Assembly (NCBI GenBank): GCA_902777355.1
Contig: CACYTU010000005.1
Coordinates: 1-64,000, forward strand
Origin: an uncultured Lachnospiraceae bacterium
GTDB lineage: Bacteria > Bacillota > Clostridia > Lachnospirales > Lachnospiraceae
Direction: 5' to 3'
Length of the DNA: 64,000 bases
In this document: positions 10,036-61,547 of the stretch, one piece after another
How positions within the stretch are numbered: the first letter of the stretch is position 1
Layout: every line of letters begins with the position of its first letter
The notes under the pieces: model-generated
Seen by the model: the letters and a program-made list of their open reading frames with translations, nothing else
Told to the model about the DNA's origin: nothing
Databases searched by the model: none
Made by a program: the position numbers and the translations under genes

Positions 10036-10069
10036 AAACAGACGCCCGATGCTGTTCAGGCGTCTGTTT
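10036..10069 (-). terminator. terminator hairpin after hom
   Basis: AAACAGACGCC (10036-10046) pairs perfectly with GGCGTCTGTTT (10059-10069). On the minus strand, the direction of hom, it is followed by TTTTACTG. Its right arm is one of the two 8-bp direct repeats of element B1, so B1 inserted at the foot of this stem. Confidence 0.75.
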
Positions 10070-10212
10070 GTTACTGGTCACACCGTGACCAGTAACAAGG
10101 CGTTTTCCATTCCAAATTGGCTTTCTGCCAATGGAAAACGCCCTTGAGCCCAGTCAAAATGACTGCCCCCGCACCAAACAGCTAAGTGTTTGGTGCGGGT
10201 GTGACTTGTAAC
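10070..10212 (+). mobile_element. MITE-like element family B, copy B1
   Basis: 143 bp flanked by the perfect 8-bp direct repeat GTCTGTTT (10062-10069 and 10213-10220). Ends are GTTACTGGTCACACC and, read inward from the other side, GTTACAAGTCACACC (13 of 15 match). Three hairpins follow one another: 10070-10096 (11-bp perfect stem), 10099-10142 (13-bp perfect stem) and 10168-10199 (13-bp perfect stem). No coding frame of note. It must be moved by a transposase encoded elsewhere. Confidence 0.88.
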
Positions 10213-10249
10213 GTCTGTTTTGATTTTAATACAATCACGGCCAGCGGTC

Positions 10250-11467
10250 TCAGCCCAGTATGCGGATCGAGCTGCGGACATCGGAAAACTGCTTAAGCAG
10301 TTCCGCAAAAGCTGCCTCCGCCACCGGAGGGGTCACAAAGGCGAAATCATCTTCCGGCCCGCATCCGGGCGCTGCCTGTTTGCACCCTTCGAACAGATCC
10401 AGAGCCTTGTCTTTTTCGGAAGCTGCGACGCGCACGAAGAAGCGGCCGGTTTTACTGCCCGGATCTGAGAGCTCCATAACCTCGTCAGACCAGCGGACAG
10501 GTATGTTCTGTCCAATGTTCATGGCGCAGTCCACCATGTCGGATACAACCGCGCTGGCAGTAGGGAACTTGCCCGCTCCACGCCCGTAGAACATGACATT
10601 GTCCAGCAGGTTGCCGTGCACGAATACCGCGTTGAAGACGCCTTCCACACCGTGAAGGGGGTGAGACGCAGGGACCATATAGGGAGCAGTGCGGACATAG
10701 AAGGTTCCTGCCTTCTCGTCGCGCTCGCTGATGCCAAGAAGCTTGATCGCCCTGCCTATACTGCGCGCATAGGCGACATCGGTCATGGAAATGCTGCTGA
10801 TTCCCTCACAGGGGATATCTTCGTACCGGACTGTCTTTCCGCACATGAGAGATGAGAGAATGGCAATCTTGCGGCATGCATCGTGACCTTCGATATCAGC
10901 CTCCGGATTCTTCTCCGCATATCCTTTGGACTGCGCTTCGCGCAATACTTCATCGAAGGAGATCTCCTCGTGCTCCATTCTGGTCATCATATAGTTGGTC
11001 GTCCCGTTCAGGATCCCGATGATCTGTGTGATTGATTCGGGGGCAAGGGAGACGTTCATGGGGCGGATGATCGGAATGCCGCCGCCGACACTTGCTTCAA
11101 AAAGGTAAGAGCAGTGATTTTCAGCGGCTATTTTCAGAAGCTCCGGGCCATGGGCTGCCACTAGTTCTTTATTGGAGGTGCAGACGCTGATTCCCTTCTC
11201 AAGAGCCTTCTTTGAGAAAGTATAAGCGGGTTCTTTTCCTCCCATTGTCTCACAGATCACTTTGATCTCCGGATCTTCGAGAATGATGTTAAAGTCGTGG
11301 ACAACTCTGTCCTTGTAGGGGCTGTCAGGAAAATCACGGAGGTCCAGAATGTATTTGACTTCAATTCCTTCGGGAAGACGCCTGTCGATCGATTCTCTGT
11401 TGATATCGATCAGTTCGACTACACCGCTTCCGACTGTTCCAAATCCCAACACAGCTGCTTTAATCAT
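10250..11467 (-). CDS. hom: homoserine dehydrogenase
   Basis: 405 aa. It reduces aspartate semialdehyde to homoserine with NAD(P)H, the branch toward threonine and methionine. The Rossmann motif is LGFGTVGSGVVE at the N-terminus; the catalytic region has GILNGTTNYMMTRM and KGYAEKNPEADIEGHDACRK. The C-terminus is shorter than the about 430-aa forms with a full ACT domain, so feedback control may rest on the separate ACT protein encoded just upstream. SD AAAGGAA before the ATG at 11467. It is probably cotranscribed with that ACT gene (119-bp gap) and ends at the hairpin at 10036-10069. Confidence 0.94.
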   Translation of the reverse strand: MIKAAVLGFGTVGSGVVELIDINRESIDRRLPEGIEVKYILDLRDFPDSPYKDRVVHDFNIILEDPEIKVICETMGGKEPAYTFSKKALEKGISVCTSNKELVAAHGPELLKIAAENHCSYLFEASVGGGIPIIRPMNVSLAPESITQIIGILNGTTNYMMTRMEHEEISFDEVLREAQSKGYAEKNPEADIEGHDACRKIAILSSLMCGKTVRYEDIPCEGISSISMTDVAYARSIGRAIKLLGISERDEKAGTFYVRTAPYMVPASHPLHGVEGVFNAVFVHGNLLDNVMFYGRGAGKFPTASAVVSDMVDCAMNIGQNIPVRWSDEVMELSDPGSKTGRFFVRVAASEKDKALDLFEGCKQAAPGCGPEDDFAFVTPPVAEAAFAELLKQFSDVRSSIRILG

Positions 11468-11586
11468 TTTGCCATTCCTTTCCTTATTGCTTCAGGCATA
11501 GCGCGCCGCAATAACAAACAGCCGCAATATCCTGTTTCAGTCATTAATTCAGTAATTCCGTTCCGGCTCTGCGCCGTATCCATCTG

Positions 11587-12024
11587 TCACCGCCCTGTGA
11601 CACGCACCCGCCGCACGCCGCTTCTCGAGGTGATTCGGTCTATGATGGTCTTCACGTTATCCGCGTTCTCCAGCATCTGCATGCTGATACTGACAACGGC
11701 AGTTCCATCCACGGGGATTGCCTGATGAATGGTGAGTATGTTTGCACCGCACTGGGCGATGGTCTGCAGCAGATCCGACAGAATGCCTGCCCGGTCACTG
11801 ACCTCACATACAATGGTCAGCATTGATCCCGGAATATTGTTGTGAAACTCTTCCACAGCATCTTTAAATTTGTAAAAAGAGCTTCTGGCTACTCCAACCC
11901 TTTCAACGGCCTCGTTGACTGTCCGGGCTTCCCCGGTAGAAAGAAGCCGGTTGGCTTCGGCCACTTTCTTCAGGACCGAAGGCATGGCAGACTCATGCAC
12001 TATGTAATAGGAAGTGCCCTCCAT
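11587..12024 (-). CDS. UPF0735-family ACT domain protein (PheB-like)
   Basis: 145 aa. The N-terminal half is a small helical segment with GVARSSFYKFKDAVEEF, resembling the PheB family of Bacillus. The C-terminal half (about 68-145) is an ACT domain: LTIVCEVSDRAGILSDLLQ, then ANILTIHQAIP. ACT domains bind amino acids, and this family is often found next to hom or pheA, as here upstream of hom. It probably tunes aspartate-family synthesis as a separate regulatory chain; this is inferred from position. GGAGAT SD before the ATG. Confidence 0.85.
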   Translation of the reverse strand: MEGTSYYIVHESAMPSVLKKVAEANRLLSTGEARTVNEAVERVGVARSSFYKFKDAVEEFHNNIPGSMLTIVCEVSDRAGILSDLLQTIAQCGANILTIHQAIPVDGTAVVSISMQMLENADNVKTIIDRITSRSGVRRVRVTGR

Positions 12025-12091
12025 AATATATCTCCGCTCTCCTTCTTACCAGATAAGGTGACTGAGTACAAAATCAGATTGACGGAACCGC

Positions 12092-12244
12092 TTTACTCGT
12101 CACACCATGACCAGGGTGTGACGGTAACGTTGCGTTCGGCGATCCCAATTTCGCTACGCGAAAAGTCGAACGCCCTAAACTCCGTTTTTTGAGCGCTCAG
12201 GCGCTCAAAAACACGTCGAATCTGGCGGCGGAGTGACTTGTAAC
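12092..12244 (+). mobile_element. MITE-like element family B, copy B2
   Basis: 153 bp, flanked by GGAACCGC (12084-12091) and CGAACCGC (12245-12252), 7 of 8 matching. Left end TTTACTCGTCACACC; right end inward GTTACAAGTCACTCC. Three hairpins as in B1, but the second and third stems have different sequences (second built on GCGTTCG/CGAACGC, third on GTTTTTTGAGCGC/GCGCTCAAAAAC). It lies in the 492-bp gap upstream of the ACT gene. Confidence 0.85.
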
Positions 12245-12257
12245 CGAACCGCTTCTA

Positions 12258-12324
12258 TTCCAGCTCCGCAGTCCGCCTCTAGCGGACGCTTCTTTTCCAG
12301 CTCCGCAGTCCGCCTCTAGCGGAC
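12258..12324. repeat. 30-bp direct repeat, two copies, 37-bp period
   Basis: Identical 30-bp units at 12258-12287 and 12295-12324, each holding the palindrome GTCCGC-CTCTA-GCGGAC. The rest of the gap to 12516 is T-rich and shows nothing else. Confidence 0.85.
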
Positions 12325-12516
12325 ATTTGTACGTGCACGATGGATATCTTAACATGATGAGAGCATGATTGCAAGGGGATAGCTCACTTTTACTGAACTT
12401 TTACTGAACTTTTCCGCTTATTTTTCCAACTATACTTTTTCGTTTTCCGGTTTTGCCGGCAGCTATTCTGATTGACACTGTACGGGCTTGTGTTCCCCTG
12501 TGCCAGTCATTTTTTG

Positions 12517-15500
12517 TCAGCCGGCTGAAATCTGCCGGGTTCTGGTCAGCCGGCGGCGGATCATGCCGGCTATGAGGACAAGGGCTGTCAGGATCGAGAC
12601 CGCTGACGCCGGAACAAAACCGTGAGGCAGATAGGTGAAGCGGATCTCATGAGTTCCCTGGGGTACAAACACTGCTGTCAGACCGAAATCCGCGCGTTCC
12701 ACCTTTGCGGGCTCACCATCCACAGTTGCGGAAAAGCCCTTGTCGTAGGGCACGGAAAACAGGACCAGATTGTCATTTTCCATCTCAGCTGTGGCGTGGA
12801 AGCCGTTTCTGTCAGGAACGAATTCCGTGCATGCAGAAGCCGCCCTCTGTTCACACCACTGAGTGAACTCCGGGTAAGGCATTTTTTCAGTATAAAGTTC
12901 AGTGTCCTTCGTCATCAGGTGACCGTATTTTTCCGCCATTTCGTCGGACAGGATCAGGTCTTTTACAAGCACCCGGTCCGAGACCTCGCCGTTTTCCAGC
13001 TGGTCGTAATCGTCCTCAGTCATGTAATAGTCAAATACAATTCCCATGGGAATATAGTTTTCCGTCTCATAGACGTTGTAGCCATTTTCCGTATTGATCA
13101 GGCTGTATCCATTGATCCCGCCCTCGTCAGTGTAGCTGCTGTCAGAATTGACCAGGGAATTCTCCAGGTAGTATCTCACTGACATGATGGCCCTGGCTCC
13201 GATTCTCTGGAAGGGAAGCGTAGATTCTACGGTCCTGATCATACCGATTCCCCGGTACCACTTGAATATGGAAGGATGTACCGTGCTCTCGAAGCAGTGC
13301 ATGGTGGGGATTCCCCAGACCATCTCATAGTTTGTCGAAGTGCTGTCCGTCTCCACTCTGGAGAAGGGAGAGGGAACCCAGGCGTCCATTCCGGAGTCAC
13401 CTAAGATAGAGCCTGTTTCCTTTGTCTCTTCCACGAGCCTGAGATAGTCTTCGTCACTCTTTGCCTTTTTCCTTTTTTCGTCTTCCTTATGATCCTTGGG
13501 GGTTTTATCCTCTCCCTGAAGTATATCCGGCAGATCCGCAGCAGGAGCAATTCCGGGGATCCTGTCGGCCTCTTGTGCAGATTCTCCGCCGTCTTCCCCC
13601 TGTGCCTGTTGCTCCACCTCGAAGGAGGGACGCAGAGAAAACATCTGCAGCCTCCATTTTTCAAAACCTTTATAGGAGATCAGAGAACTGCCGTTTTTCA
13701 CCACTGCCATTGTCGAGATGACACAGCAGGCCATGGTCAGCAGCAGACAAACAAGGCCGGGAACAAAGGTGGGTTTTTTCCTTTCTTTCAGACCAGATCC
13801 CTTATCCTCCTCTTGCGGGGGATTATCCAATCCGGCAGAACCGTTGTCTTCTGAGCCGGCGGAATCACCGTTCTCATCCATTTGGGAGAGATCTTCTGAA
13901 AGGACAGGGCTGATCTCCTCATCCCTCTGGGACAGTTCTTCTGAAAGGACAGGGCTGATCTCCTCATCCCTCTGGGACAGTTCTTCCGAAAGGACAGGGC
14001 TGATCTCCTCATCCCTCTGGGACAGTTCGTCCGAAAGGACAGGGCTTATTTCCTCATCCCTTTGGGAAAGTTCTTCCGAAAGGACAGGGTTGTCATCTCC
14101 GCCTTTTTTGGGGAGACTGTCCGAAGGGACAGCTTCATCTGAGACCGGATTCTCATCTCTTCTGCCGGTCCCGGTGGATTTTTCAAATACAGGAAACAGG
14201 TCGTTGAATTTCCGTTTGATCAGTATTATGACAAAGAGCATAGCTGAACACAGAAGGGTTGCCATGATTTCCATGTTCAGAAGTTTTCTGTTTTCACATA
14301 TTTTCGTAAAGCTCCATTCCCCGCCCTCATATACAGGCAGAAAGCACATAAGGATAAAGAGCCCTGTACAGGCAAGTGAAAGAGCCGCCCCCTTTGAAAA
14401 GGCAGAGCACTCCTTTTCTTCCAGGACTTCCGCGGTCATACAGGCACACAAAAGGACAGGCATATAGAACCAGCGCGCGTAATAGTTTTCGTTCAGAGCG
14501 GAAAAAACCGAACACAGAACCGGGACAAAAGCCATTACTGCCAGCACTGTAAGGAGTGTGTTTTTCCAGTTTCTGCGCCGAATCATGCGGAAGGCAAAGA
14601 CGCCGGCCATAGCAAAGCAGGGCAGATAAAAAGCCAGCGACCCGTTCCTTATATAATCACTGGAAAAAAGCGTGCCGCGGGCAATCAGGTCCGGCACCAT
14701 AAACAGGGATTTCACTATAGCCAGAGGAGTCGTCGAATCGGGGTAAACAACCAGATCATAGCCGCTGAGAAATTCCGATATGCGGGAATTGCCCATGATT
14801 CCGCCTACAGACTGCACCAGGAAAAAGGCGGCCAGAAGAAGGCCGGCTGCCGCAGCCGCGGCGATCTGCAGGACTTGCGCCAGGGCAGACAGTATGCCTT
14901 CCGCCCGCACGCTCCTGATCCCCCAGCGTACTGTGTAATAGAGGACCAGGAAGACAACCTGTCCGAAGAAGAAATAGTAGTTGATCACGGACATCAGGGC
15001 CGTCAAAAGGATGAAGCCGTACAGACCCCTGCCTGCTCCTTTGCCTTCACTCCCTCCTTCCCTCCTTCCCTCGACAAAGCGGTCAAAGCACAGTAGATAT
15101 AACGGGAAAAAGGCTGTCGCGTCGTGGAAATGCTGGAAGACAATATTACAGGCCTGAAAACCGGAAAAGGCATAGAGATAAGCCCCCAGAGCTGCTGCCC
15201 TGTCAGTCCTTGTCTGTGTCCTGATCCAGGCAAAGGCAGTGACAGAGGCCGTCCCGCATTTGAGAGCCATCAAAAAGGGCATCATATAGGGAAGCCATGC
15301 CTCGGGAAAGGGAATCGTCAGCCAGAAGAAGGGACTCCCCCAGAGATAAAAGGAAAAGGTTCCTCCCATATTGCCGCCAAGGTCCACCAGAGGATTCCAG
15401 AACAGACGCCCCTGGCGGACCGCGCGATGGGCGAAGATCAGGAAAGGAACCTGCTGGACATTATAATCTCCGTAATAAAAGAACAGGCCGTCGTGAGTAA

Positions 15501-15603
15501 TTAAAAAAGGAAGGACTGCAAGAAAATAGATCAGCATTCCCCCCAAAAAAACTGCAGCAGGCACTATTCTGTTTCTGTTTTCATTCATGGTTTTCATATA
15601 CAC
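12517..15603 (-). CDS. YfhO-family multispanning membrane protein
   Basis: 1028 aa. An N-terminal helix (VFLGGMLIYFLAVLPFLI) is followed by an extracytoplasmic loop with GDYNVQQVPF and NPLVDLGGNMGG, the first-loop pattern of YfhO proteins (GT-C-like fold). About 12 further membrane helices follow to residue 480. A charged repeat (about 505-575) and one helix (about 610-630) come next, then a large extracytoplasmic domain ending VPYDKGFSATVDGEPAK, typical of the family, and a last helix. Bacillus YfhO takes part in glycosylation of lipoteichoic acid; a lipid-linked sugar transferase role is inferred. The GTG at 15603 has no clear SD; ATG codons at 15597 and 15588 are alternatives. Confidence 0.88.
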   Translation of the reverse strand: MYMKTMNENRNRIVPAAVFLGGMLIYFLAVLPFLITHDGLFFYYGDYNVQQVPFLIFAHRAVRQGRLFWNPLVDLGGNMGGTFSFYLWGSPFFWLTIPFPEAWLPYMMPFLMALKCGTASVTAFAWIRTQTRTDRAAALGAYLYAFSGFQACNIVFQHFHDATAFFPLYLLCFDRFVEGRREGGSEGKGAGRGLYGFILLTALMSVINYYFFFGQVVFLVLYYTVRWGIRSVRAEGILSALAQVLQIAAAAAAGLLLAAFFLVQSVGGIMGNSRISEFLSGYDLVVYPDSTTPLAIVKSLFMVPDLIARGTLFSSDYIRNGSLAFYLPCFAMAGVFAFRMIRRRNWKNTLLTVLAVMAFVPVLCSVFSALNENYYARWFYMPVLLCACMTAEVLEEKECSAFSKGAALSLACTGLFILMCFLPVYEGGEWSFTKICENRKLLNMEIMATLLCSAMLFVIILIKRKFNDLFPVFEKSTGTGRRDENPVSDEAVPSDSLPKKGGDDNPVLSEELSQRDEEISPVLSDELSQRDEEISPVLSEELSQRDEEISPVLSEELSQRDEEISPVLSEDLSQMDENGDSAGSEDNGSAGLDNPPQEEDKGSGLKERKKPTFVPGLVCLLLTMACCVISTMAVVKNGSSLISYKGFEKWRLQMFSLRPSFEVEQQAQGEDGGESAQEADRIPGIAPAADLPDILQGEDKTPKDHKEDEKRKKAKSDEDYLRLVEETKETGSILGDSGMDAWVPSPFSRVETDSTSTNYEMVWGIPTMHCFESTVHPSIFKWYRGIGMIRTVESTLPFQRIGARAIMSVRYYLENSLVNSDSSYTDEGGINGYSLINTENGYNVYETENYIPMGIVFDYYMTEDDYDQLENGEVSDRVLVKDLILSDEMAEKYGHLMTKDTELYTEKMPYPEFTQWCEQRAASACTEFVPDRNGFHATAEMENDNLVLFSVPYDKGFSATVDGEPAKVERADFGLTAVFVPQGTHEIRFTYLPHGFVPASAVSILTALVLIAGMIRRRLTRTRQISAG
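13891..14090 (-). repeat. in-frame 45-bp tandem repeat in the YfhO-family gene
   Basis: Units start at 13901, 13946, 13991, 14036 and (partial) 14081. Each encodes a 15-residue acidic unit of the type VLSEELSQRDEEISP. It lies in a hydrophilic linker between membrane helices. Neighbouring copies differ by only one to four bases, suggesting recent expansion. Confidence 0.92.
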
Positions 15604-15687
15604 CGTTTATCCGCCGGCTGTCCCTTTGTTATCGACAGCAGGGCATTTCCCCTCAGGATAATCTTTGCGGGACAAAGTTATGATTTG

Positions 15688-15726
15688 TGCCCTGCCGTAC
15701 AGGGACCGCCCCCTTCCGGCAGGGCA
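15688..15726. other. intergenic hairpin between yerC-like gene and yfhO-like gene
   Basis: TGCCCTGCCG (15688-15697) pairs with CGGCAGGGCA (15717-15726). No T-run follows on either strand, so it is a weak terminator at best. Confidence 0.5.
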
Positions 15727-15759
15727 GGCTGTGATCCAAATCCGCCCCGCATCCCGCAT

Positions 15760-16095
15760 TTATTTCCTTGATCTTTTATCCGGACGCTGGTCTGTTTCAG
15801 GCATCTGGTAGGATTTCATTCTGGCAAAGACCATATCATAGCCGTCATTTCCGTAACTGAGCGAGCGGTTGACGCGGCTTATGGTCGCAGTCGACGCGCC
15901 GGTCTTCTCAGCGATCTTAAGATATGTATCTTTGCGCTTGAGCATGGAGGCCACTTCGAACCTCTGAGAGAGCGACAACAGTTCATTTACCGTACACAGA
16001 TCCTCAAAAAACTGAAAACACTCCTCTTCGTCCTGGAGTGTCAGTATTGCCTCAAATAGATGTTTGACAGCTTCTGTCCGGATTTTATTGTTCAT
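15760..16095 (-). CDS. YerC/YecD-type TrpR-like repressor
   Basis: 111 aa from the ATG at 16095 (GGGGG upstream); an upstream TTG in frame is not favoured. The TrpR-like helix-turn-helix is visible: LCTVNELLSLSQRFEVASML, then TYLKIAEKTGASTATISRVNRSL, where GASTATISRVNR is the recognition helix. These proteins share the fold of the Trp repressor, but their ligand is not established and they should not be assumed to control trp genes. The gene stands alone, minus strand, upstream of the YfhO-family gene with 156 bp between. Confidence 0.88.
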   Translation of the reverse strand: MNNKIRTEAVKHLFEAILTLQDEEECFQFFEDLCTVNELLSLSQRFEVASMLKRKDTYLKIAEKTGASTATISRVNRSLSYGNDGYDMVFARMKSYQMPETDQRPDKRSRK

Positions 16096-16358
16096 GTATA
16101 CCCCCAAAGAGTGTCTGTAAAAAGCTGACAGGATGACGACCTGCCATTAGAATGGATTGTCAGGCAGTTCATGCTTTCCGAAAACCTGTAAATCAATATC
16201 CCGGGAACAGTCCTCTGCTTAGCATAAATCCGCTTTTGCCTTTTATTATATTAGCATTTTAAAACTGTGAAGTAAAGAAGCAACAGGACACTCATTTTGC
16301 TATATCAAAGGGGTTATTTTTTTGTACATCTGAAAATCCTTATACAAGGCAAAAACGC

Positions 16359-16387
16359 TTTACTTTTGATTTTACTTGTGTTATGTT
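16359..16387 (+). promoter_or_regulatory. promoter and leader of the cold-shock gene
   Basis: TTTACT (16359-16364), 17-bp spacer, TATGTT (16382-16387). The leader of about 80 bases to the ATG is very A/T-rich with a pyrimidine tract, as is common for csp mRNAs. The 376-bp gap 16096-16471 otherwise shows only divergent A/T-rich promoter-like sequence for the yerC-like gene. Confidence 0.6.
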
Positions 16388-16471
16388 AAGTCTGTTGCAC
16401 TAAAGAAAATGTAGCGCATTTTTTTTATGCATTATACAAGTTTTAATTTTTTTGTTTTGGAGGTGCCAGCA

Positions 16472-16672
16472 ATGAGTAAAGGAACTGTCAAGTGGTTCAA
16501 CAACCAAAAGGGATTTGGATTTATTTCTGATTCTGAAGGCAACGATGTATTCGTTCACTTCAGTGGTATCAATCAGGAAGGTTTCAAGTCTCTGGAAGAA
16601 GGCGAAGCAGTCGAATATGATGTGATCCAGGGTCAGAAAGGACCTCAGGCTGTTAACGTCACAAAACTCTGA
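16472..16672 (+). CDS. cold-shock protein (Csp/CspA family)
   Basis: 66 aa, one cold-shock domain filling the whole protein. The RNA-binding motifs are intact: [12 protein letters not shown] (RNP1, KGFGFI) and DVFVHFS (RNP2, VFVHF). It binds single-stranded RNA or DNA in the cytoplasm and prevents secondary structure at low temperature. The ATG at 16472 follows GGAGG at 8-base spacing. The longer frame upstream (from 16427) runs through the leader and is rejected. Monocistronic, with its own promoter and a strong terminator at 16838. Confidence 0.96.
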
Positions 16673-16837
16673 TTCAGAAGTTTTACTAATATTCCAATCT
16701 GCGGAAATGTTGAACAATGTCTATTAATCCGGACAGCTTTGACAGTCTCCCGGACAGATGAATATATTCAGTGGGATTAATTCTGACATAAAAAACTGAC
16801 ATGAAGATATTGACATACTATTTATGAAAGAAATCAC

Positions 16838-16868
16838 AAAACCGGCACATTGATCTGTGCCGGTTTTT
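16838..16868 (+). terminator. terminator of the cold-shock gene
   Basis: AAAACCGGCACA pairs with TGTGCCGGTTTT around a 6-base loop, followed by TCTTTTTTC. The 341-bp gap 16673-17013 holds this terminator and otherwise nothing recognised. Confidence 0.92.
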
Positions 16869-17013
16869 CTTTTTTCTTATGACACGGTCTGCAGAACCGC
16901 GCAATGCATTTTTTTCATCTGACGCAGTATTGATCATAAGCGGAACACGGGCATTGGCAATGCGGTTTCCCGTCTTTCGCAATATCGATATTGTTCCTCA
17001 GCGGTCCGCGGAC

Positions 17014-18733: not shown

Positions 18734-18773
18734 TTTTTCTCCTCCCTGGTTTATTGTCTTTATGAAAAATTAA

Positions 18774-27550: not shown

Positions 27551-27568
27551 AAGAATAGCAGCTGGAAT

Positions 27569-27721
27569 GTTACAGTACAGCCCCCCTCGAATTCGAGGCG
27601 TTTTTGCGCGATTTTCAGCGCAAAAACCCGAGTGGAACGGCGTTCGCCCCATTTGCGAAGCGAATTCAGCATGGGCGAACGCAAGTTACATTCACGCCCT
27701 CGATAGGGCGTGAATTGTAAC
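27569..27721 (-). mobile_element. MITE-like element family B, copy B3 (inverted)
   Basis: 153 bp in the opposite orientation to the other copies. Flanks GCTGGAAT (27561-27568) and GCAGAAAT (27722-27729) match at 6 of 8. Ends GTTACAGTACAGCCC (left) and GTTACAATTCACGCC (right, inward). The three stems are present; the GCGTTCGCCC/GGGGCGAACGC stem and the TTTTTGCGC/GCGCAAAAA stem are long and almost perfect. It lies between the two membrane-protein genes. Confidence 0.85.
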
Positions 27722-27724
27722 GCA

Positions 27725-27786
27725 GAAATCTGCCTGCCCACACGATAAAATACAAGGGCTGAAATCCGCCCGCTCACACGATAAAG
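27725..27786 (+). repeat. 26-bp direct repeat, two copies, 36-bp period
   Basis: 27725-27750 and 27761-27786 share GAAATCTGCC/GAAATCCGCC and CACACGATAAA. They lie just before the start of the following gene and could contain its control region. Confidence 0.7.
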
Positions 27787-34189: not shown

Positions 34190-34248
34190 GCATAGGTTCT
34201 GAAAAAGTACACAAGCTATGCTTTTTTCCATGATAAAATAATTTTGTC

Positions 34249-34403
34249 GTTACTGTTCACGCCCTCTCGAGGGCGTAAACAGTAACTTGCGAAAATCCCA
34301 TTCCAAATCGCTTACACGATGGGATTTTCGCCGTCAGACTCCGGTTTTTGCGCTGAAAGCCGCGCAAAAACACGTCGAATTCGAGGTGGTCTGAACAGAT
34401 AAC
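34249..34403 (+). mobile_element. MITE-like element family B, copy B4
   Basis: 155 bp, flanked by a perfect 8-bp direct repeat ATTTTGTC (34241-34248 and 34404-34411). Ends GTTACTGTTCACGCC and, inward from the right, GTTATCTGTTCAGACC. Hairpin 1 is a 17-bp stem with one mismatch; hairpin 2 pairs GCGAAAATCCCAT with ATGGGATTTTCGC; hairpin 3 is built on TTTTTGCGC/GCGCAAAAA. It lies in the 651-bp divergent gap between purL and hppA. Confidence 0.9.
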
Positions 34404-34500
34404 ATTTTGTCATAAAAAATGCACGATTTTTAATTTATTTAGTTCATTTTTTCTCACGCAGATAATCTGATATATCCTGTATCTCTTACCATTTCATTTT

Positions 34501-34623: not shown

Positions 34624-34658
34624 GTATTCACACACCCGGTCAGGGTGTTACAAGTTAC
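34624..34658 (-). mobile_element. possible remnant of a family B element
   Basis: Read on the minus strand: GTAACTTGTAACACC, CTGACC, GGGTGTGTGAATAC. This resembles the first hairpin of copy B2 only. No second or third hairpin and no flanking direct repeat. Confidence 0.35.
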
Positions 34659-54475: not shown

Positions 54476-55189
54476 TCACATTCTCATCTGGCGGAACATA
54501 TAGGCGGCATGAGCTTTTCGGATCTCTGCCATTCTCCTGCGGCTGACAGGCACCTGATAGTTTTCCATCAGATACACAGTACTTTCATCAATTCTCTGAA
54601 CATACTCCAGATTAATAATGATTCCCTTGGTGCATGTAACGAAGGAATCATTGGCACAGAGAATCTCTTCCATGTTAGCCTGGCTTGTACGCAGCTTCTT
54701 CTTCCGGTTGTTCTTGAGATAAAGAATGATCCGGTGATTGTAATATTCAGAATACAGTATATCGTGGAGCAGGCAGGTGGAGCCATCCGGAAGGCTGACC
54801 ACTCTCTGCATCTCATAATCTTCGAGGTTGATGATGTCAAGTGCCTTGACGATATCATCGTGAACAAAAGGTTTCAGAAGATAGTAGTCCGCCCTGAGCG
54901 AGTAACTTTCCGCCGCGAAATCATTGCTTGTCGTCACAAACACCATACGGACCGATCTGTCTGTCCTGCGGACCTCGGCAGCGGCCTGTATTCCATTCAT
55001 GCCATCCATGTAGATATCGAAGAACAGAAGGTCGTATTTTCCCTGTTCAAACGAGTTCAGAAACTGCTCTCCGCTTTCAAACAGGTCAATCGAGTCAACT
55101 CTGTATCCCTTTTCCCGGAGAACCGAATCCAACTCCCTGAACAGGATCTCACGGTCATCGGCCCGGTCATCAATAATAGCTGCCCGCAT
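54476..55189 (-). CDS. LytTR-family response regulator
   Basis: 237 aa. Receiver domain 1-120: acidic pair D7/D8, phospho-acceptor D58 in LLFFDIYMDGMNG, and the conserved lysine in YYLLKPF. The LytTR DNA-binding domain fills 135-237, with LHDILYSEYYNHRIILYL and CTKGIIINLEYVQRI. It probably receives phosphate from the AgrC-like kinase and activates promoters with paired direct repeats. It is 54 bp downstream of the BTAD-type regulator, probably one transcript, and ends at a strong terminator, so the kinase gene may be expressed separately. AGAGGA SD. Confidence 0.93.
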   Translation of the reverse strand: MRAAIIDDRADDREILFRELDSVLREKGYRVDSIDLFESGEQFLNSFEQGKYDLLFFDIYMDGMNGIQAAAEVRRTDRSVRMVFVTTSNDFAAESYSLRADYYLLKPFVHDDIVKALDIINLEDYEMQRVVSLPDGSTCLLHDILYSEYYNHRIILYLKNNRKKKLRTSQANMEEILCANDSFVTCTKGIIINLEYVQRIDESTVYLMENYQVPVSRRRMAEIRKAHAAYMFRQMRM

Positions 55190-55243
55190 ATGTAATCCTC
55201 TCGCCAGACTGCCCGGCAGATTTCCCTGCCATCAGGCCCTGTC

Positions 55244-56479
55244 TCAGCCGCTTTTGCGCAAAGTGTTCTTCATGTTCGAATCCACTGCGTTTACGTCGTA
55301 CTGGATACTGATTCTCTGACGTCCCACGATAAAGCTGTTATTGATGCACTGTTCAACCAGGACACACTCCTCTCTGGTCGTGTTGAGAAGAAGAATGAGA
55401 CATTGCCCCTTTCCGAATGAACATACGGTGTCGCCGCTTCGCACACTGGAACATGCGCTCTCGAGCAGACGCTCGGAGAGGCGGTCGAGGACGGATCCCT
55501 CTTTCATGGGATTCCCCTTGCCGTCCAGAATCGTGCAGAGCATCAGATAAGCAGGCTCTCCCGTTCTCTCAATGAGGCGTCTGGCAGATCTGTAAATTCC
55601 CTGAAAAACAGGATAGCTGCAGAGATATCCGCCCGTTTCGTCACTGTCTCCGGCTTCCAGGTTCCTCTGAATATCATTCAGGGCAGTGTGCTGATGACTG
55701 ATTCCCTTTCCAAGGTGCTCGAACCACTCGACGATTTTTCCTGAAGGATAAACCCCCATCTCTTCCAGATAGTAGTTGACTGTGCACTCATAAAGACGGA
55801 TCGCCTCATCATACTTGCGCATGCGGACCAGGGCTTCCATGGTCAGGGACTCCCAATACGAGAGAGGAGCGATCACTGACGCGAACTGCCCAAGTTCCTT
55901 CATTCGGTTGAAATCCTGGATCTGACGGAGAATATTGCCTGCCTGCTCAACGCAGTCCGCAAACATCTCCTCATAGCGCATGGATTCACGTACAGCCCAG
56001 ATGTTGCCGGACTGCATGGGAAGGAATTCGCCGCCGTACTGATAGCAGGCTTTCAGATAGCATTCCAGCCTTCTGGCGGGATCCGTCTCCTGCGCAGCAT
56101 CGTTGTGCAGCTTCTCGAAAATATAGGCATCCTCTTCTACTTCAATCTCATTGGTCCAGTAGAAGACGTCTTTATCAGAGATAATATAATTTACCTTGGG
56201 AAGGCCTGCCTTTTCAAGAAATTTCTTGGCATTATAGATAACGCTTCTCAGAGAGTGGTGGGCATTGTCCACCTCTCTGTCCCCGAAAAGAAGCTCCTCG
56301 AGACGATCGCGTGTAACTCCCTTTTCCCTGGAGTGGATCAGGATCTGCAACAGCGCATTATTCTGAGATATTGAGGCTTTGGAAGAACCCACAATAGTCT
56401 TTCCGTTATAGCTCATGGAAAAGCCACCGAGCATTTTAATATGCAGTACTTCGCGAGTATTTTCTAAAATGGCTGTCAT
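55244..56479 (-). CDS. BTAD/SARP-like transcriptional regulator with degenerate GGDEF-like tail
   Basis: 411 aa. The N-terminal 100 residues form an OmpR-type winged helix (IKMLGGFSMSYNGKTI, SREKGVTRDRLEELLFG, ALLQILI). Residues about 115-250 are a helical BTAD-type region (RRLECYLKACYQYGGEFL, ALVRMRKYDEAIRLYE, LEEMGVYPS). The last about 120 residues (LMLCTILDGKGN; VRSGDTVCSFGKGQCLILLLN) follow the outline of a GGDEF domain, but the signature is GKGQC, so it cannot make c-di-GMP. Regulators of this build are common in gut Clostridia; target genes are unknown. GGGGAGG SD. It heads the regulator cluster. Confidence 0.82.
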   Translation of the reverse strand: MTAILENTREVLHIKMLGGFSMSYNGKTIVGSSKASISQNNALLQILIHSREKGVTRDRLEELLFGDREVDNAHHSLRSVIYNAKKFLEKAGLPKVNYIISDKDVFYWTNEIEVEEDAYIFEKLHNDAAQETDPARRLECYLKACYQYGGEFLPMQSGNIWAVRESMRYEEMFADCVEQAGNILRQIQDFNRMKELGQFASVIAPLSYWESLTMEALVRMRKYDEAIRLYECTVNYYLEEMGVYPSGKIVEWFEHLGKGISHQHTALNDIQRNLEAGDSDETGGYLCSYPVFQGIYRSARRLIERTGEPAYLMLCTILDGKGNPMKEGSVLDRLSERLLESACSSVRSGDTVCSFGKGQCLILLLNTTREECVLVEQCINNSFIVGRQRISIQYDVNAVDSNMKNTLRKSG

Positions 56480-56811
56480 GATTTCGTCCTCCCCGCAGCA
56501 GGCATCGGTATCAATGTCAGTATCCGGAAAACAGCTGTGTTTTTGATGACCGGCCTCATAATGAATGTACTTTTGATAGCTGTTCTTCTGGCTGTACTTT
56601 TGATGAATGTACTTCTGATCGCTGTACTGCCAGTCATACCCCTGAATGTTTATAATTATTCAGGACTTGCTGTTCAAATATGAGAAATTATACGCACTGC
56701 TGTTCAATAGTATTATAACCTGTCCGCTTTCAAGGATGTGTTCCGTTCGAGTCGTTTTCGTACCGTTTGAGTACACCGGAAATGCCGTTCGAGTACTCTG
56801 AATTACCGCCC

Positions 56812-56915
56812 GGGTACACCGGATGCGCCGTTCGTCTGTATCTGAAGAAACGCCCGGGGTACACCGGTTGCGCCGTTCGTCTGTATCTGAAGAAACGCCC
56901 GGGGTACACCGGAAG
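56812..56915. repeat. 45-bp tandem repeat
   Basis: The GGGTACACCGG core recurs at 56815, 56860 and 56905, with CGCCGTTCGTCTGTATCTGA between; weaker copies extend left to about 56760. Further left, 56555-56635, a looser repeat of ATGAATGTACTTTTGAT occurs. The whole 721-bp gap 56480-57200 is made of these repeats, copies C2 and A3 and a terminator. Confidence 0.85.
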
Positions 56916-56937
56916 TGCATTTGAGAATAAGGCAGAG

Positions 56938-57016
56938 GCGGCCGCACCGCCCTCTCCCCCCCCGACCGGCCCGCGTCCGCCGCAGGGCGGAGAATACATT
57001 ACGCGGGCCGTGTCAT
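56938..57016 (+). repeat. structured repeat family C, copy C2
   Basis: 79 bp. Outer stem GGCCCGCGT/ACGCGGGCC (9 bp) and inner stem TCCGCC/GGCGGA. Compared with C1 the stem bases differ on both sides while pairing remains, and the blocks CCCCGACCGGCC, ATACATT and GGCCGTGTCAT are kept. Confidence 0.78.
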
Positions 57017-57053
57017 AAAAAAGACAGGCAGGTATCTGTCATACCTGCCTGTC
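57017..57053 (-). terminator. terminator downstream of the sulfatase gene
   Basis: GACAGGCAGGTAT (57023-57035) pairs perfectly with ATACCTGCCTGTC (57041-57053). On the minus strand it is followed by TTTTTTATGA. Confidence 0.9.
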
Positions 57054-57117
57054 CGCAAAATATTTCCGCATGTTGACGAGACTCAGAGCCTTTCCCTGAT
57101 TTTTGTCCCAATATCAC

Positions 57118-57190
57118 ATTTATTCTTCGGCGCGCAACACCCGTGACTTCAGTCGGGGGATACGCGCGCAAGACTCGCGGGCGAGTCTTG
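57118..57190 (-). repeat. palindromic repeat family A, longest copy (A3)
   Basis: 73 bp read on the minus strand: the 22-bp palindrome seen in A1, then GCGCGTATCCCCCGACTGAA, GTCACGGGTGTTGCGCGC and the tail GAAGAATAAAT. Two adjacent hairpins result. The GACT/AGTC stem with C-run and G-run flanks resembles terminal hairpins of IS200/IS605-type elements, but no tnpA or tnpB is present. Confidence 0.72.
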
Positions 57191-57200
57191 AATATATTTT

Positions 57201-59756
57201 TTACTTAGGCTTCTGGTAGGAGGGCTCTTTTCTGCGCGCCCCGAGTCCGTCGTAGGTGTTGAATTCCACACTGTCGACGACCACTGAGTGCTCATTGTCG
57301 TAAACGACAATATTAAGTCCGATTCTCTGTACAGCATACTCGATGTCATTAATCTTCACCGAGCAGGTCAGATATCTGCCTGCGCCTCCTCCGGCTCCGC
57401 TCAGTCCGCCCTGACTGATCAGAGAATAATCGGCCCCATCAGGAAGTGTCCCGGTGCGGCTCAGTTCCTCCTCGCTGATCTCTTCTATTTTGTCTTCTCC
57501 GGGGATCAGGACCGCGTAGTAACTCCATCGATAGTGGCCCGGCAGTGTCTCCTCAAGTCCCAGATCTGCCAGCATTCCCTGGATTTCGGAGTCGATTTGT
57601 CTGGTTCCGTCATCACGGATCGTGATAAATATACTGTATTGCCTGTTTTCGGCAAGCATAGGCAGATACTCGTATATATTCCACGTACTTCGCAGTTTCA
57701 TGTCGCCTGTGATCCGGCCGGCTTCAAAGCGCCTTCCCGACTTACCGTTCACATAAATGTAGATGTTGCAGGATTTCAGATCCAGTCCCTTATCTCCTGA
57801 CAAATGCCCGAAGTATACATTTTTGCCGGTCTGTTCCAGCTTCAGATACTGCTTGTTGTCCGGATTTTCGTTGTCCCAGATTTCCGCCTCCACAGAGCTG
57901 ATCTTTTCATAAATGTTTTTAAAATCCGACACGACGAAAGACAGTTCCCCGGTCGTTTCGTCACAGTCCGTAATCGTCACGGATGATGCCGGGGCCAGTC
58001 CCTGGGCGCGCAGAAGGTCGGTATCGTAAATATCGATATCCGCCAGTTCCTGCATGAACCTGCTCTTCTTGCTCAGTTCCGCCTCCAGATCCTCCGCGCC
58101 GTATTTTTCAAACAGCGTATCTTCACTGCTGTAAAGGTTGGTGCCCAGTCCCAGACGCTCTCCCTCAATCTTGACTCCGAGAGCAGCCAGAGTGGTCGGA
58201 AAATTATCCATTGTGGTATATTGGCGCACTCTTTCGGGATTGGCCGGCTCCACGGCGGAGTTGATAAAGGCTGTGTAGGTGCGGCGATCATAGGAAGACG
58301 GCACATTGTTGCAGAAATCGCTGTCCATTGTGAGGTGGTCCCCGTTCAGGACAATGGTGGTATTCTCATAAAAATCCTGCTGCTGGACCCAGCGGATGAA
58401 CTCGTTCACCTGTCTGCTGGAACAGGCGAAGGAGTTGGCATACCTGTTTCCTTCGAAATCCTCACGGCACAGTTCACACTGATATCCGTCCTCAAAGTGG
58501 GTATCAACTGTCAGTATGGAAAAGTTGAAGGGCTCATCTTTGGAAGCCAGTTCTGTCACCTGTTCTTTGGCGTAGGAAAAAAGCTTCCGGTCTTCGTATC
58601 CCCAGAAAACATAATAGTCCTTGGGAATCTTTCCCTCTTCGATCGCCCATTTGTAGTCACAGATGTTGTAATCGCCATGTTCTGTCAGAAAGAGCCTGCG
58701 CCCTCCGAAAGTCGCGTCAGAACCGCACATAAAGACCTGGTTGTAGCCTTCCCCGTCCAGAATATCCCCGATTGTTGTCACACCGGAGAAAAAGGAGTCC
58801 TGCGTGTTCATTTTATTAAAAGAACCGCGTGTATCCACGAACTGTTCTTCCAGATCGACCTTGAGCGGCAGTCCGGAAGCCTGGCAGAAAAGCCCTGCCA
58901 TTGTATAGGTGCACCCGGGCATGACATGGCCCCCGTTCAGAAGACCGGTATTGCCGTTGAAATTATCTCCCTCTCCCGAGAGCCTGGTCAGCTCGGGAAT
59001 GACATTTTCCGGGAATGCTCCCCCGCTGTTTTGATCGGCAAAAGTCATCTCAGCCGATTCAAGATAAATATAAATCAGATTTCTCTTCTTTTCCGGGAAA
59101 GTGAGGTGGGTCTTTTTGGGATCTACGTAATTGTCCTCAATAAAGGAGGAATCCTCCATCTGGTCACGGAAAAAACGGATCAAATCCAGCTTGACAGTGG
59201 TCACTACCGAGATGATCACCAGTGCTATGAGTGCACCGGTGAAAGACCTCCTGACAAATACTCCGCGCGCCTTCGGGGCGCGGCGGGTGTGCACGATCAT
59301 CAGGAAAATGCTGATCATGATCAGAAGAGCAGGAAGAATGCAGCGGGTGACATACTTTTCGATCATTCCTCCCCCGGTGCCTTCCAGCGGGGCCTTCAGA
59401 TGAAAAATGATCTCATCCATCTTCAGCCCGGCCCAGGTTGTAAATGCCCAGATCACAGTAAAAAACAAGACAGCAGAGACCGTGGTGAGGAGAACTGCGA
59501 GCCCGGCCGCAATTTTTGTCTGAAACCAGGATCTTTTCCGGGCGCCTTCCCTGTTCTTCTTTCTGCCTCTGCGCCTCTCTTTTCTGCCGGTGCGTTTCTC
59601 CCCGGATGAAGTGTCCGGAGTGCCTGCCGCATCCGCAGACTCCTTGTCAGATTCTTCTGACTCATTAGTCTGAGCAGCAGATTTCGTCACTTCCCTGTCG
59701 GCATCTCTGGCCGTTTCCTTGTCGGACTGCTGTAAGATGTCCTTTTTTTTCGACAT
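57201..59756 (-). CDS. LtaS/MdoB-like sulfatase-domain membrane protein
   Basis: 851 aa. A very basic, charged cytoplasmic N-terminus (1-75) is followed by three membrane helices (about 83-108, 137-156, 172-190) and an extracellular sulfatase-type domain (about 222-560). Metal and nucleophile motifs: YIYLESAEM (E233), PGCTYTMAGLFCQASG (Thr283/285), VDTHFEDGYQ and LNGDHLTMDSD. Such enzymes polymerise glycerol phosphate on a glycolipid (lipoteichoic acid) or transfer phosphoglycerol or phosphoethanolamine. Typical LtaS has five helices and about 640 aa; here there are three, plus an unassigned beta-rich tail of about 250 residues. AAAGGA SD. Confidence 0.9.
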   Translation of the reverse strand: MSKKKDILQQSDKETARDADREVTKSAAQTNESEESDKESADAAGTPDTSSGEKRTGRKERRRGRKKNREGARKRSWFQTKIAAGLAVLLTTVSAVLFFTVIWAFTTWAGLKMDEIIFHLKAPLEGTGGGMIEKYVTRCILPALLIMISIFLMIVHTRRAPKARGVFVRRSFTGALIALVIISVVTTVKLDLIRFFRDQMEDSSFIEDNYVDPKKTHLTFPEKKRNLIYIYLESAEMTFADQNSGGAFPENVIPELTRLSGEGDNFNGNTGLLNGGHVMPGCTYTMAGLFCQASGLPLKVDLEEQFVDTRGSFNKMNTQDSFFSGVTTIGDILDGEGYNQVFMCGSDATFGGRRLFLTEHGDYNICDYKWAIEEGKIPKDYYVFWGYEDRKLFSYAKEQVTELASKDEPFNFSILTVDTHFEDGYQCELCREDFEGNRYANSFACSSRQVNEFIRWVQQQDFYENTTIVLNGDHLTMDSDFCNNVPSSYDRRTYTAFINSAVEPANPERVRQYTTMDNFPTTLAALGVKIEGERLGLGTNLYSSEDTLFEKYGAEDLEAELSKKSRFMQELADIDIYDTDLLRAQGLAPASSVTITDCDETTGELSFVVSDFKNIYEKISSVEAEIWDNENPDNKQYLKLEQTGKNVYFGHLSGDKGLDLKSCNIYIYVNGKSGRRFEAGRITGDMKLRSTWNIYEYLPMLAENRQYSIFITIRDDGTRQIDSEIQGMLADLGLEETLPGHYRWSYYAVLIPGEDKIEEISEEELSRTGTLPDGADYSLISQGGLSGAGGGAGRYLTCSVKINDIEYAVQRIGLNIVVYDNEHSVVVDSVEFNTYDGLGARRKEPSYQKPK

Positions 59757-60068
59757 TAGTATCTTATCCTTTTCTTAGTCGTTTTTTCTTTCGAAGGCTT
59801 TTATCATTTGTCGTTTTTTACCCCGGACTTTTTCCGCCTGATCGTTTATACCCTGGATATTTTCATTTAATCTTTTATGCCGCGGTCATTTTTCACTATA
59901 CTCATTTTTCCCTATAGCCATTTTTCACTATTATCAGCTTTTGACCCTGGCCGGGTGCAGCTGAAAAGGGGTTGATAAATGATGGGTAAAAAACGATGGT
60001 AAAAAACATTGAAGAGCGTCAAAAAAACAGATGACTTATAAAAACGTTGAAAAAAACAGATGTCGCAC

Positions 60069-60096
60069 TTGAAAAGCCGTGCTTTTCTGTTATAAT
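60069..60096 (+). promoter_or_regulatory. promoter of the tRNA gene
   Basis: TTGAAA (60069-60074), 16-bp spacer, TATAAT (60091-60096), 20 bases before the tRNA. The 360-bp gap 59757-60116 is A/T-rich; 59860-59945 repeats CATTTTTC-ACTATA-like units, and nothing else is recognised. Confidence 0.75.
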
Positions 60097-60116
60097 AATC
60101 ACTGTTATAAAAACGC

Positions 60117-60187
60117 GCAGGTGTAGTTCATCGGTAGAATACCAGCTTCCCAAGCTGGGGAGACGGGTTCGATTCCCGCCACCTGCT
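60117..60187 (+). tRNA. tRNA-Gly (anticodon CCC)
   Basis: 71 bases with all four arms. Acceptor stem GCAGGTG/CACCTGC, D arm GTTC-ATCGGT-AGAAT, anticodon stem CCAGC/GCTGG with loop TTCCCAA (CCC at 60149-60151, reads GGG), T arm CGGGTTCGATTCCCG, discriminator T. The 3' CCA is not encoded. It has its own promoter and terminator. Confidence 0.96.
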
Positions 60188-60195
60188 CTCAGAAG

Positions 60196-60232
60196 CGGTC
60201 TTCGTTTTCAAAAGCGAGGATCGTTTTTTTTT
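60196..60232 (+). terminator. terminator of the tRNA gene
   Basis: CGGTCTTCGTTTT pairs, with several G-T pairs, with AAAAGCGAGGATCG and is followed by eight or more T. Confidence 0.85.
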
Positions 60233-60236
60233 GTCT

Positions 60237-60279
60237 CTTTGCTCCAAAATGCTTTTGTTAAAAGCGTTTTGGAGCAAAG
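60237..60279. terminator. long hairpin between tRNA-Gly and smpB
   Basis: CTTTGCTCCAAAA (60237-60249) pairs with TTTTGGAGCAAAG (60267-60279), and GCTTTT/AAAAGC continue the stem. It probably ends smpB transcription on the minus strand. Confidence 0.75.
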
Positions 60280-60333
60280 ATAATTATTGTTCAAAGATTG
60301 TTCTGATCTCCGCAGAATTCACCTGTCTCCGGA

Positions 60334-60804
60334 TCAGATCTTGAGCTGATTTCTGTAATCCCTCTCTGTCTCGCGGCGGATCGCCTTCTTTCTCAGATCG
60401 TCCCTCTTGTCATAGAGCTTCTTGCCTCTGGCAAGACCGATTTCAATCTTGACAAGGCCTTTTTTGAAATAGACCTGAAGGGGCATGATCGTATATCCCT
60501 TTGTCTGTACCTGTCCCTGCAGCCGCAGGATTTCCTTTTTGTGGAGCAGGAGCCGTCTCCGCCTCAGGGGTTCCCTGTTGAAAATGTTTCCCTTCTCATA
60601 GGGGCTGATATTCATTCCTTCAATGAAAGCTTCCCCGCCCGAGATCATGACATAGGCCTCTTTGATGCTGCACTTGCCCATCCGGATCGACTTCACTTCC
60701 GTTCCGAACAGCTCGATGCCGCACTCATATTTTTCTTCTATAAAGTAATCGTGGTAGGCCTTTTTGTTGTTGGCCACAAGCTTAAAGGGCTTATTGTCTG
60801 CCAT
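60334..60804 (-). CDS. smpB: SsrA-binding protein
   Basis: 156 aa, the standard SmpB length. It binds tmRNA and delivers it to stalled ribosomes. Conserved blocks: NNKKAYHDYFIEEKYECGI, LFGTEVKSIRMGKCSIKEAY, LLLHKKEI, KKGLVKIEIGLARGKKLYDKR and the C-terminal RKKAIRRETERDYRNQ tail that enters the decoding centre. No ssrA gene was recognised next to it. It is downstream of secG with a terminator hairpin between. Confidence 0.97.
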   Translation of the reverse strand: MADNKPFKLVANNKKAYHDYFIEEKYECGIELFGTEVKSIRMGKCSIKEAYVMISGGEAFIEGMNISPYEKGNIFNREPLRRRRLLLHKKEILRLQGQVQTKGYTIMPLQVYFKKGLVKIEIGLARGKKLYDKRDDLRKKAIRRETERDYRNQLKI

Positions 60805-60853
60805 AGAAACAACCTCTTTGCAGGCCGGCCGCGCCGGCCTTCTTCAATACGAT

Positions 60854-60877
60854 AAAACGGCACCCTTCAGGGTGCCG
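60854..60877 (-). terminator. terminator between secG and smpB
   Basis: CGGCACCC-TTCA-GGGTGCCG (60858-60877), followed on the minus strand by TTTTATC. A second palindrome, GGCCGGC-CGC-GCCGGCC, lies nearby at 60821-60837. Confidence 0.85.
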
Positions 60878-60946
60878 CATTCTTTTCAGACAGTCCGGAC
60901 ACGGCTCTGTACAGGACCTATGCCAGTATTGCTGTATGTCACACGA

Positions 60947-61186
60947 TCAGAACAGATGCATATTGAGAAGGATCGCGAGTACAAAAAACATGACAACAAG
61001 ACCCGTGGTAAACTTCACGAGAAATCCCTCCATTGTCCTGCCTTTGTTTTTTCCCCAGTAAGTATCGCTCTGGCCGGCAATCGCGCCCAGTCCCTGGGAT
61101 TTTCCCTCCTGCATCAGGATGACAATAGTCATAACGATGCTGATGACGATCATGATAACAGTCAGCACAACACGCAAAACACCCAT
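60947..61186 (-). CDS. secG: preprotein translocase subunit SecG
   Basis: 79 aa. Two membrane helices (about 3-24 and 57-77) joined by the conserved loop MQEGKSQGLGAIAGQSDTYW, which is the SecG signature, and KNKGRTMEGFLVKFT. It assists SecYEG in protein export. AAAGGA SD before the ATG at 61186. Genes secG and smpB are often neighbours in Firmicutes (usually with rnr between, which is missing here). Confidence 0.95.
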   Translation of the reverse strand: MGVLRVVLTVIMIVISIVMTIVILMQEGKSQGLGAIAGQSDTYWGKNKGRTMEGFLVKFTTGLVVMFFVLAILLNMHLF

Positions 61187-61336
61187 TGCTTCATATCCTT
61201 TCTTCTGTTTCCGGAGCCTGCGGCACTGCTGCTCAAAGCAGGCCGGAACATAGCAGTATCAATGCCAAACATTTAGAATAGTAACATACGAACTTGTGTC
61301 ATGCAAGTTACTTTTTTGTTTCTCTTCAAAAATCAG

Positions 61337-61480
61337 GTTACTGGTCACACCGTGGCCAGTAACAGGGCGTTTTCCATTCCAAATCGGCCTTCAGTCAATG
61401 GAGAACGCCCTTGAGCCCGGTCAGGGCTGCAGGCCCCGCACCAAACAGCAAAGTTGTCTGGAGCGGGTGTGATCTCAAAC
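61337..61480 (+). mobile_element. MITE-like element family B, copy B5
   Basis: 144 bp, flanked by a perfect 8-bp direct repeat AAAATCAG (61329-61336 and 61481-61488). Left end GTTACTGGTCACACC is identical to B1; the right end is decayed (inward GTTTGAGATCACACC). The second hairpin is the GCGTTTTCCATT type of B1. It accounts for much of the 361-bp gap between secG and the PBP gene; the rest shows nothing. Confidence 0.88.
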
Positions 61481-61547
61481 AAAATCAGTCTTAATCCGGC
61501 AAAAAAACGTCCGGGATCTGTGATTTGTCTTTCCAGTCACTTCATGA

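Follow-up and report, generated by a model that had tools for sequence, protein, structure and literature searches.

What moves the five short repeats scattered through a 64,000-nucleotide stretch of DNA from an uncultured Lachnospiraceae bacterium (contig CACYTU010000005.1, positions 1 to 64,000, hereafter the window)? As far as they could be tested, these repeats are gene-less miniature inverted-repeat transposable elements (MITEs). Comparison of sequences further suggests that they are moved in trans by an IS66-type DDE transposase from a GTTAC-tipped, single-transposase branch near ISGst1, a reading to which we give a probability of about 0.83.

An initial annotation, based on the letters of the window alone, described a single five-copy family with ends of a common form and 8-bp direct repeats. 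We read all five copies directly at the sequence level, and the copies, their GTTAC ends and their 8-bp duplications are real.

10070..10212, forward strand: MITE copy, subfamily B1, with hairpins at element positions 1-27, 30-73, (82-96) and 99-130
10062..10069 (left) and 10213-10220 (right), no strand: target-site duplication GTCTGTTT of copy 10070, 8/8
12092..12244, forward strand: MITE copy, subfamily B2, left tip TTTAC
12084..12091 (left, GGAACCGC) and 12245-12252 (right, CGAACCGC), no strand: target-site duplication of copy 12092, 7/8
27569..27721, reverse strand: MITE copy, subfamily B3, inverted
27561..27568 (left, GCTGGAAT) and 27722-27729 (right, GCAGAAAT), no strand: target-site duplication of copy 27569, 6/8
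34249..34403, forward strand: MITE copy, subfamily B3
34241..34248 (left) and 34404-34411 (right), no strand: target-site duplication ATTTTGTC of copy 34249, 8/8
61337..61480, forward strand: MITE copy, subfamily B1, right tip degenerate (CTCAAAC)
61329..61336 (left) and 61481-61488 (right), no strand: target-site duplication AAAATCAG of copy 61337, 8/8

Three of the duplications are perfect (copies 10070, 34249 and 61337), as had been stated. Two ends differ slightly from the earlier description, in that copy 12092 begins TTTAC and the right end of copy 61337 is degenerate; the end sequence that had been given, GTTACnnGTCACACC, fits B1 best, and B3 departs from it, for example as GTTACTGTTCACGCC. 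The supposed family of five belongs to a larger one that the genome carries, and alignment together with genome searches divides the five copies into three subfamilies (B1, 10070 and 61337; B2, 12092; B3, 27569 and 34249). With lengths of 143-155 bp the window copies have room for about 51 codons at most, and none of the frames of at least 120 amino acids listed for the window overlaps any of them.

The genome to which the window belongs (G000; 3.87 Mb in 150 contigs, 84% complete) carries many more copies. The end pattern GTTACNNGTCACACC occurs 24 times in it, compared with no occurrence of the reversed control, and a wider pattern, GTTACNNNTCANRCC, occurs 106 times, compared with three for its reverse. 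Used as queries in similarity searches, single copies of B1, B2 and B3 gave 34, 33 and 48 matches, counts that take in partial matches and hairpin self-matches. Drawing on these match lists and on paired ends, and leaving shorter matches aside, we assembled 57 near-full-length copies: 12 of B1, 9 of B2 and 19 of B3, together with 17 that have the ends GTTACAGTTCAGGCC and make up a fourth subfamily, D. Six of the 57 were unmeasurable by the rule of our script, including copy 61337, whose duplication is perfect. The remaining 51 comprise 31 with a perfect 8-bp duplication, 10 with one mismatch, four with two and six with four or more. Duplications with zero or one mismatch thus flank 41 of 51 copies, compared with 1.6% when left and right 8-mers are paired at random. 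The label of MITE given there was right, because terminal inverted repeats, 8-bp duplications at unrelated copies and genome-wide dispersal are all observed and the elements are too short for a gene.

Relatives of the family occur well beyond this genome. A scan for two ends lying 138-168 bp apart covered one genome from each of 84,980 species, and 80 of at least 117 resulting stretches were analysed: 67 are from Lachnospiraceae or taken as such, seven from Coriobacteriales/Coriobacteriia and six from one Bacteroidetes metagenome-assembled genome (MAG). In other genomes the same ends enclose unrelated interiors, and near-copies of B2 are present in uncultured Lachnospiraceae MAGs (L152 and L160). 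Both flanks were available for 77 of the analysed stretches, with a perfect 8-bp duplication in 55, one mismatch in nine, two in one and five or more in 12, so that 64 of 77 measurable elements outside the window's own genome have a duplication with at most one mismatch. Scans of viral contigs gave three stretches with GTTACTGTTCACACCC and 17 with GTTACTTTTCACACCC.

The initial annotation could not name an insertion sequence (IS) with these ends and proposed a search for a full-length one. It gave ISL3 and IS256 as examples of families with an 8-bp duplication; the likely partner is of IS66 type, which fits, and not of either of these, although no search aimed at those two was made. Full-length elements exist: the lead came when four genomes were searched for the IS66 transposase domain, and complete IS66-type insertion sequences of 1.8-2.5 kb, with GTTAC/GTAAC-TnTTCA ends and 8-bp duplications, are present in related genomes. 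In Schaedlerella arabinosiphila, where eight copies are listed, five of seven could be read completely and two at one end only; the complete copies are 2176 bp (L359, L361 and L366) or 2458 bp (L363 and L365) long, have the ends GTTACTATTCACAG and lie between perfect 8-bp duplications. They encode a transposase of 519 to 587 amino acids with a small frame upstream. At L359 and L362 only a frame of 135 or 121 amino acids precedes the transposase, the accessory genes tnpA and tnpB were not encountered, and the small frame at L359 has no Pfam or NCBIfam match above cut-off. The 519-residue transposase scores 56.5 bits against the DDE_Tnp_IS66 domain (PF03050; cut-off 23.1).

A two-row profile, applied at an E value of 1e-30, found relatives of this transposase in 12 of 397 genomes of the family. 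Genome G108 contains a 2358-bp element with the ends GTTACTGTTCACACCCTATT and GTTACTGTTCAGACGC and the duplication GCCGGAAT, and genome G328 such an element with the duplication CAAAGCCC. At six of the 14 loci obtained from the family search, the gene is flanked on each side by an end motif that matches at 9 or 10 of its 10 positions, a result seen at three of 500 random places. Two of the 14 have perfect duplications, including L375, which carries GTTACTGTTCACACCC, the commonest MITE end.

In a tree of 23 proteins, classical IS66 transposases are split from the side of ISGst1 with support of 100/100. The GTTAC-tipped proteins fall in one clade of 13 rows (98/97), which includes one row labelled GTAAC (L371); several of the tip labels are based on one end only. 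ISGst1 itself, with the ends GTAACTATTCA and the duplication AAAAGAAC, groups with other GTAAC rows at a support of only 86/89. Eubacterium plexicaudatum ASF492 has two classical IS66 copies with the ends GTAAACGG and GTAAGCGA (also given as GTAAACGGTAAAAAG and GTAAGCGATGAATAAC) and 8-bp duplications, as well as a copy of another group (L416) with the ends GTAACTGTTCAG and an 8-bp duplication; four of the eight stretches read there yielded either no pair of this kind or a pair that was not counted. The GTAA.. tip of classical IS66 was not found in the MITEs or in the partner clade, both of which begin GTTAC; ISGst1 and the ASF492 group of L416, both GTAAC-tipped, are a bridge between the two tips. 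For two IS66 elements, a published table has 8 in its last column, which we take as the length of the duplication (PMC3281130).

Two further observations concern these genomes. In that of ASF492 (G003) the IS66 transposase domain is matched 93 times, gene fragments included. In Schaedlerella, GTTAC ends that looked unpaired or 1.4-2.1 kb apart (L243, L247-L249, L292, L294, L295 and L311) were considered as candidates and set aside, since no transposase frame was recognised in them by eye, their frames being unscanned against a library.

Several observations weigh against an IS66-type partner. The 519-residue transposase reaches 154 bits against the NCBIfam IS66 model, below the cut-off of 180, and the other eight of the 14 family-search loci show a single clear end, matches no better than chance, or a break of the contig. 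The MITE-bearing genome itself yielded no match to PF03050 and none to the two-row profile at 1e-30, a limit at which only 12 of the 397 family genomes have any match, and a 400-kb sample of G108, the genome with the best-matching partner, held no MITE detectable by the two-end pattern. Moreover, only about 15 terminal bases are common to MITE and partner, which leaves the tip, its orientation and the length of the duplication as the basis of the link; because of this short shared end and the lack of such a transposase among the contigs of the MITE-bearing genome, we infer the link. The transposase of that genome may have been lost, be absent from the 84%-complete assembly, or have been collapsed as a repeat.

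The copies also have a distinctive folded shape. As single-stranded DNA, copy 10070 folds with a z score of -11.6. The five window copies and the 80 elements from elsewhere were examined together (85 elements, one with N letters left out) and grouped into 26 clusters sharing less than 15% of inner 8-mers. The mean z over these unrelated clusters is -8.1, compared with -0.67 in nearby control pieces (n=39), and 20 of 26 clusters fall below -5, compared with two of 39 controls. Two or more hairpins in series are found in 14 clusters and one long hairpin in the other 12. In 13 of the 26, a third copy of the tip (at least 12 of 15 positions) lies inverted within 63 bases of one end, an arrangement present in two of 1300 shuffles. 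The window subfamilies score 8-10 of 15 in this ungapped comparison, below the threshold owing to a short loop or shifted arms; in B1 the arm bases are paired at 12 of 12 positions.

An alignment of 27 of the 57 own-genome copies was used to examine covariation. In the middle hairpin, which is the only structure that RNAalifold reports for this alignment, 96.7% of cells are paired. Double changes occur in eight of its 10 pairs, a count reached by five of 500 shuffles, and 76 cells are changed on both sides, compared with 20.6 in shuffles, while two cells are changed on one side. Because cells count sequences, not events, and the subfamilies are few, the independent changes are fewer than the number of cells; further pair types are not above shuffles (461 of 500 reach the count). 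The hairpin shape is kept while its letters change, and the near absence of one-sided steps fits pairing at the level of DNA.

In the mechanism that we propose, a transposase of the GTTAC clade would bind both ends of the MITE and cut at the GT tip, and the element would be inserted with an 8-bp stagger. The hairpins and the third inverted end might be kept by selection, if the fold is needed for mobility, or might arise as a by-product of palindrome-making repair. A bolder version, which we regard as possible and rather doubtful, is that the elements form a distinct class of foldback mini-transposons. Serial hairpins and an internal third end would then be the selected mobile feature, recognised or copied in folded form (single-stranded or cruciform) by the IS66-type transposase, and the shape would be inherited across genera even as the sequence itself changes.

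The same folding could instead reflect a function in the host, with the hairpins kept as an mRNA 3′ end, an attenuator or a small RNA and mobility only their origin. Strong folding, compensatory changes in the middle hairpin and the lack of an overlapping listed frame would all suit such a role. However, the copies are dispersed and have recognisable duplications, nothing in Rfam overlaps a copy up to an E value of 1, and the finding of only two cells changed on one side suits pairing of DNA no less than pairing of RNA. Terminator-like sites are also few (four of 101 insertion sites, compared with four of 404 controls), and the empty sites fold more weakly than controls (mean -14.4 compared with -17.1 kcal/mol), for which reasons a preference for terminators was rejected and is not claimed. 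We consider a host function unlikely to explain the family. With regard to the sites themselves, R is the opening base of the duplication in 73 of 101 cases and Y its closing base in 68, figures for which no control was made.

A different mover was suggested by a 1823-bp element of E. plexicaudatum ASF492 with the ends GTTACTGTTCACACCCAATGTCATTTACTTAA, which could be the autonomous partner if an IS4-family (IS4Sa-like) transposase were responsible. Its transposase gene lies between perfect 33-bp ends beginning GTTACTGTTCACACC, with the duplication AATTTCTG, and its composite end is common to two short elements of the same genome. Relatives of this transposase were found in 50 of 397 family genomes, and 30 loci were fetched. 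These loci speak for a separate element: the motif CAATGTCATT is present in 22 of 30, usually at both ends; an 8-bp duplication lies directly outside CCAATGTCATT ends in nine; and a GTTAC tip adjoins the IS end in seven. At L270, L271 and L275 the duplication of the IS4 element is itself derived from that tip, which gives this element the look of an intruder in GTTAC ends. The genome of the window has no match to the ASF492 transposase. In a published table of the group the IS4Sa tip is CA......T (PMC2266710), a tip not found in the window copies, which begin GTTAC or TTTAC and never come closer than three mismatches to CAATGTCATT. We therefore rejected the ASF492 element as mobiliser and hold movement by an IS4 transposase to be very unlikely. 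Most simply, elements of this IS4 type insert into GTTAC ends, at times into both, and can afterwards travel with them; in ASF492 L242, L256 and L258 have composite ends that are in keeping with this account without proving it. Finally, one D copy has an IS110-type transposase gene in its middle, as it might if the copies were a structured target of IS110-type elements and no DDE transposon at all. Among the 17 D copies measured, however, it is the only one of IS size, 15 have perfect outer 8-bp duplications, and IS110 members normally leave no duplication of this kind. That explanation is hardly credible, and the gene, situated inside a single D copy, was rejected as mobiliser. An IS66-type transposase remains our preferred candidate.

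Insertion into formerly empty sites was sought at two places. The lysC-hom region of the window is matched in all 31 genomes searched in the genus, its own included. In the gap between these genes, six congeneric genomes (L382-L387, a subset of nine loci besides the own one) have nothing that aligns to copy 10070. The 8-mer GTCTGTTT is in none of the six aligned gaps, and the flanks are thus too diverged to display it as a single copy. The refuting case set out in the initial annotation, gaps in relatives that always hold the element, is not what these six show, which favours the MITE reading as far as such diverged gaps can. Within the genome of the window, a D element at L039 has CACGGTGT on both sides; its right flank is B1, and its left flank beyond the 8-mer is a piece of B2. 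Seven uninterrupted B1 copies were checked for this 8-mer; six have it once, and the seventh lacks it. The nest is complex, not simple, and it agrees with insertion into an empty site.

The window holds two further traces of the family:

1729..1799, reverse strand: truncated copy of subfamily D, 71 bases, 94% identical to a D copy
34628..34658, reverse strand: weak match (29 bases, E 0.002) to a B-type terminal hairpin, possibly a short remnant of one

Copy 10070 is inserted into the 3′ arm of a terminator-like inverted repeat (window 10036-10069). Nearby, at 9873-9927, lies a separate dispersed repeat of about 55 bp, with many matches of about 85-98% identity in several congeneric genomes, and a tail resembling it, GAAGAATAAAT...CCGCA, lies near 1835-1860, after the truncated D copy. 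Internal deletions in the D copies L107-L121 tend to adjoin one place, and N runs occur in L117 and L124, both probably an effect of assembly. The D copy with the IS110-type gene (L105; G000:C27:19644-21522) has short subterminal inverted repeats, ATATGTAATGAC and GTCATTACATAT. IS4Sa-like elements adjoin GTTAC ends repeatedly (L270, L271, L275, L277, L263, L268, L273, L242 and L301), and by eye several others seem to sit in palindrome centres. In other genomes, a Coriobacteriales MAG has GTTAC elements (L135, L142, L227 and L229) with the palindromic interior CTGTCATTCCGAGCC...GAGGAATC, a repeat motif familiar from other phyla, and Schaedlerella has solitary GTTAC...GTAAC hairpins of about 35 bp with the rest of the element absent (L247, L248 and L249).

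So far as testing was possible, the repeats form a MITE family with a probable IS66-type partner and an unusual, conserved architecture. The parts of the literature reached by our searches contain no recognised IS66-type MITE, and searches on the end sequences and on MITEs in Lachnospiraceae returned nothing relevant. Our results propose a class of mobiliser for a widespread repeat of gut Lachnospiraceae that we did not find described in those searches, and suggest that IS66-type elements possess MITEs. They also offer a test case for what makes bacterial mini-transposons palindromic, in which the pairing of the middle hairpin survives many double changes with hardly any one-sided steps. Insertions of IS4 and IS110 type are found in the elements, and short-read assemblies seem to break at recent copies, so the family is of importance for annotating such genomes.

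In being short, gene-less and intergenic, with terminal inverted repeats, the elements resemble RUP, NEMIS, Correia and similar repeats, which have other ends or duplication lengths. IS4Sa-like elements share the 8-bp duplication and are physically joined to GTTAC tips, but they have their own CCAATGTCATT ends and are inserts in the tips, not the likely mobiliser; IS231 in the ends of Tn4430 is a comparable case. Classical IS66 elements (tnpA/tnpB/tnpC) likewise make 8-bp duplications and share the IS66 DDE domain with the partner transposase, whereas their ends are GTAAA/GTAAG and their transposases lie across the fully supported split (100/100) from the ISGst1 side. There is also a likeness to ISGst1-type single-transposase elements, which we take to be the ISBst12 group: these have 8-bp duplications, ends of the form GTAACTATTCA.. 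and an IS66-type DDE domain, and in the protein tree ISGst1 and the GTTAC-tipped clade share one side. Unlike ISGst1, the MITEs have the tip GTTAC in place of GTAAC, carry no gene and measure only 143-155 bp in the window, and, by eye, no MITE-like hairpin is apparent where the complete Schaedlerella elements have their left ends.

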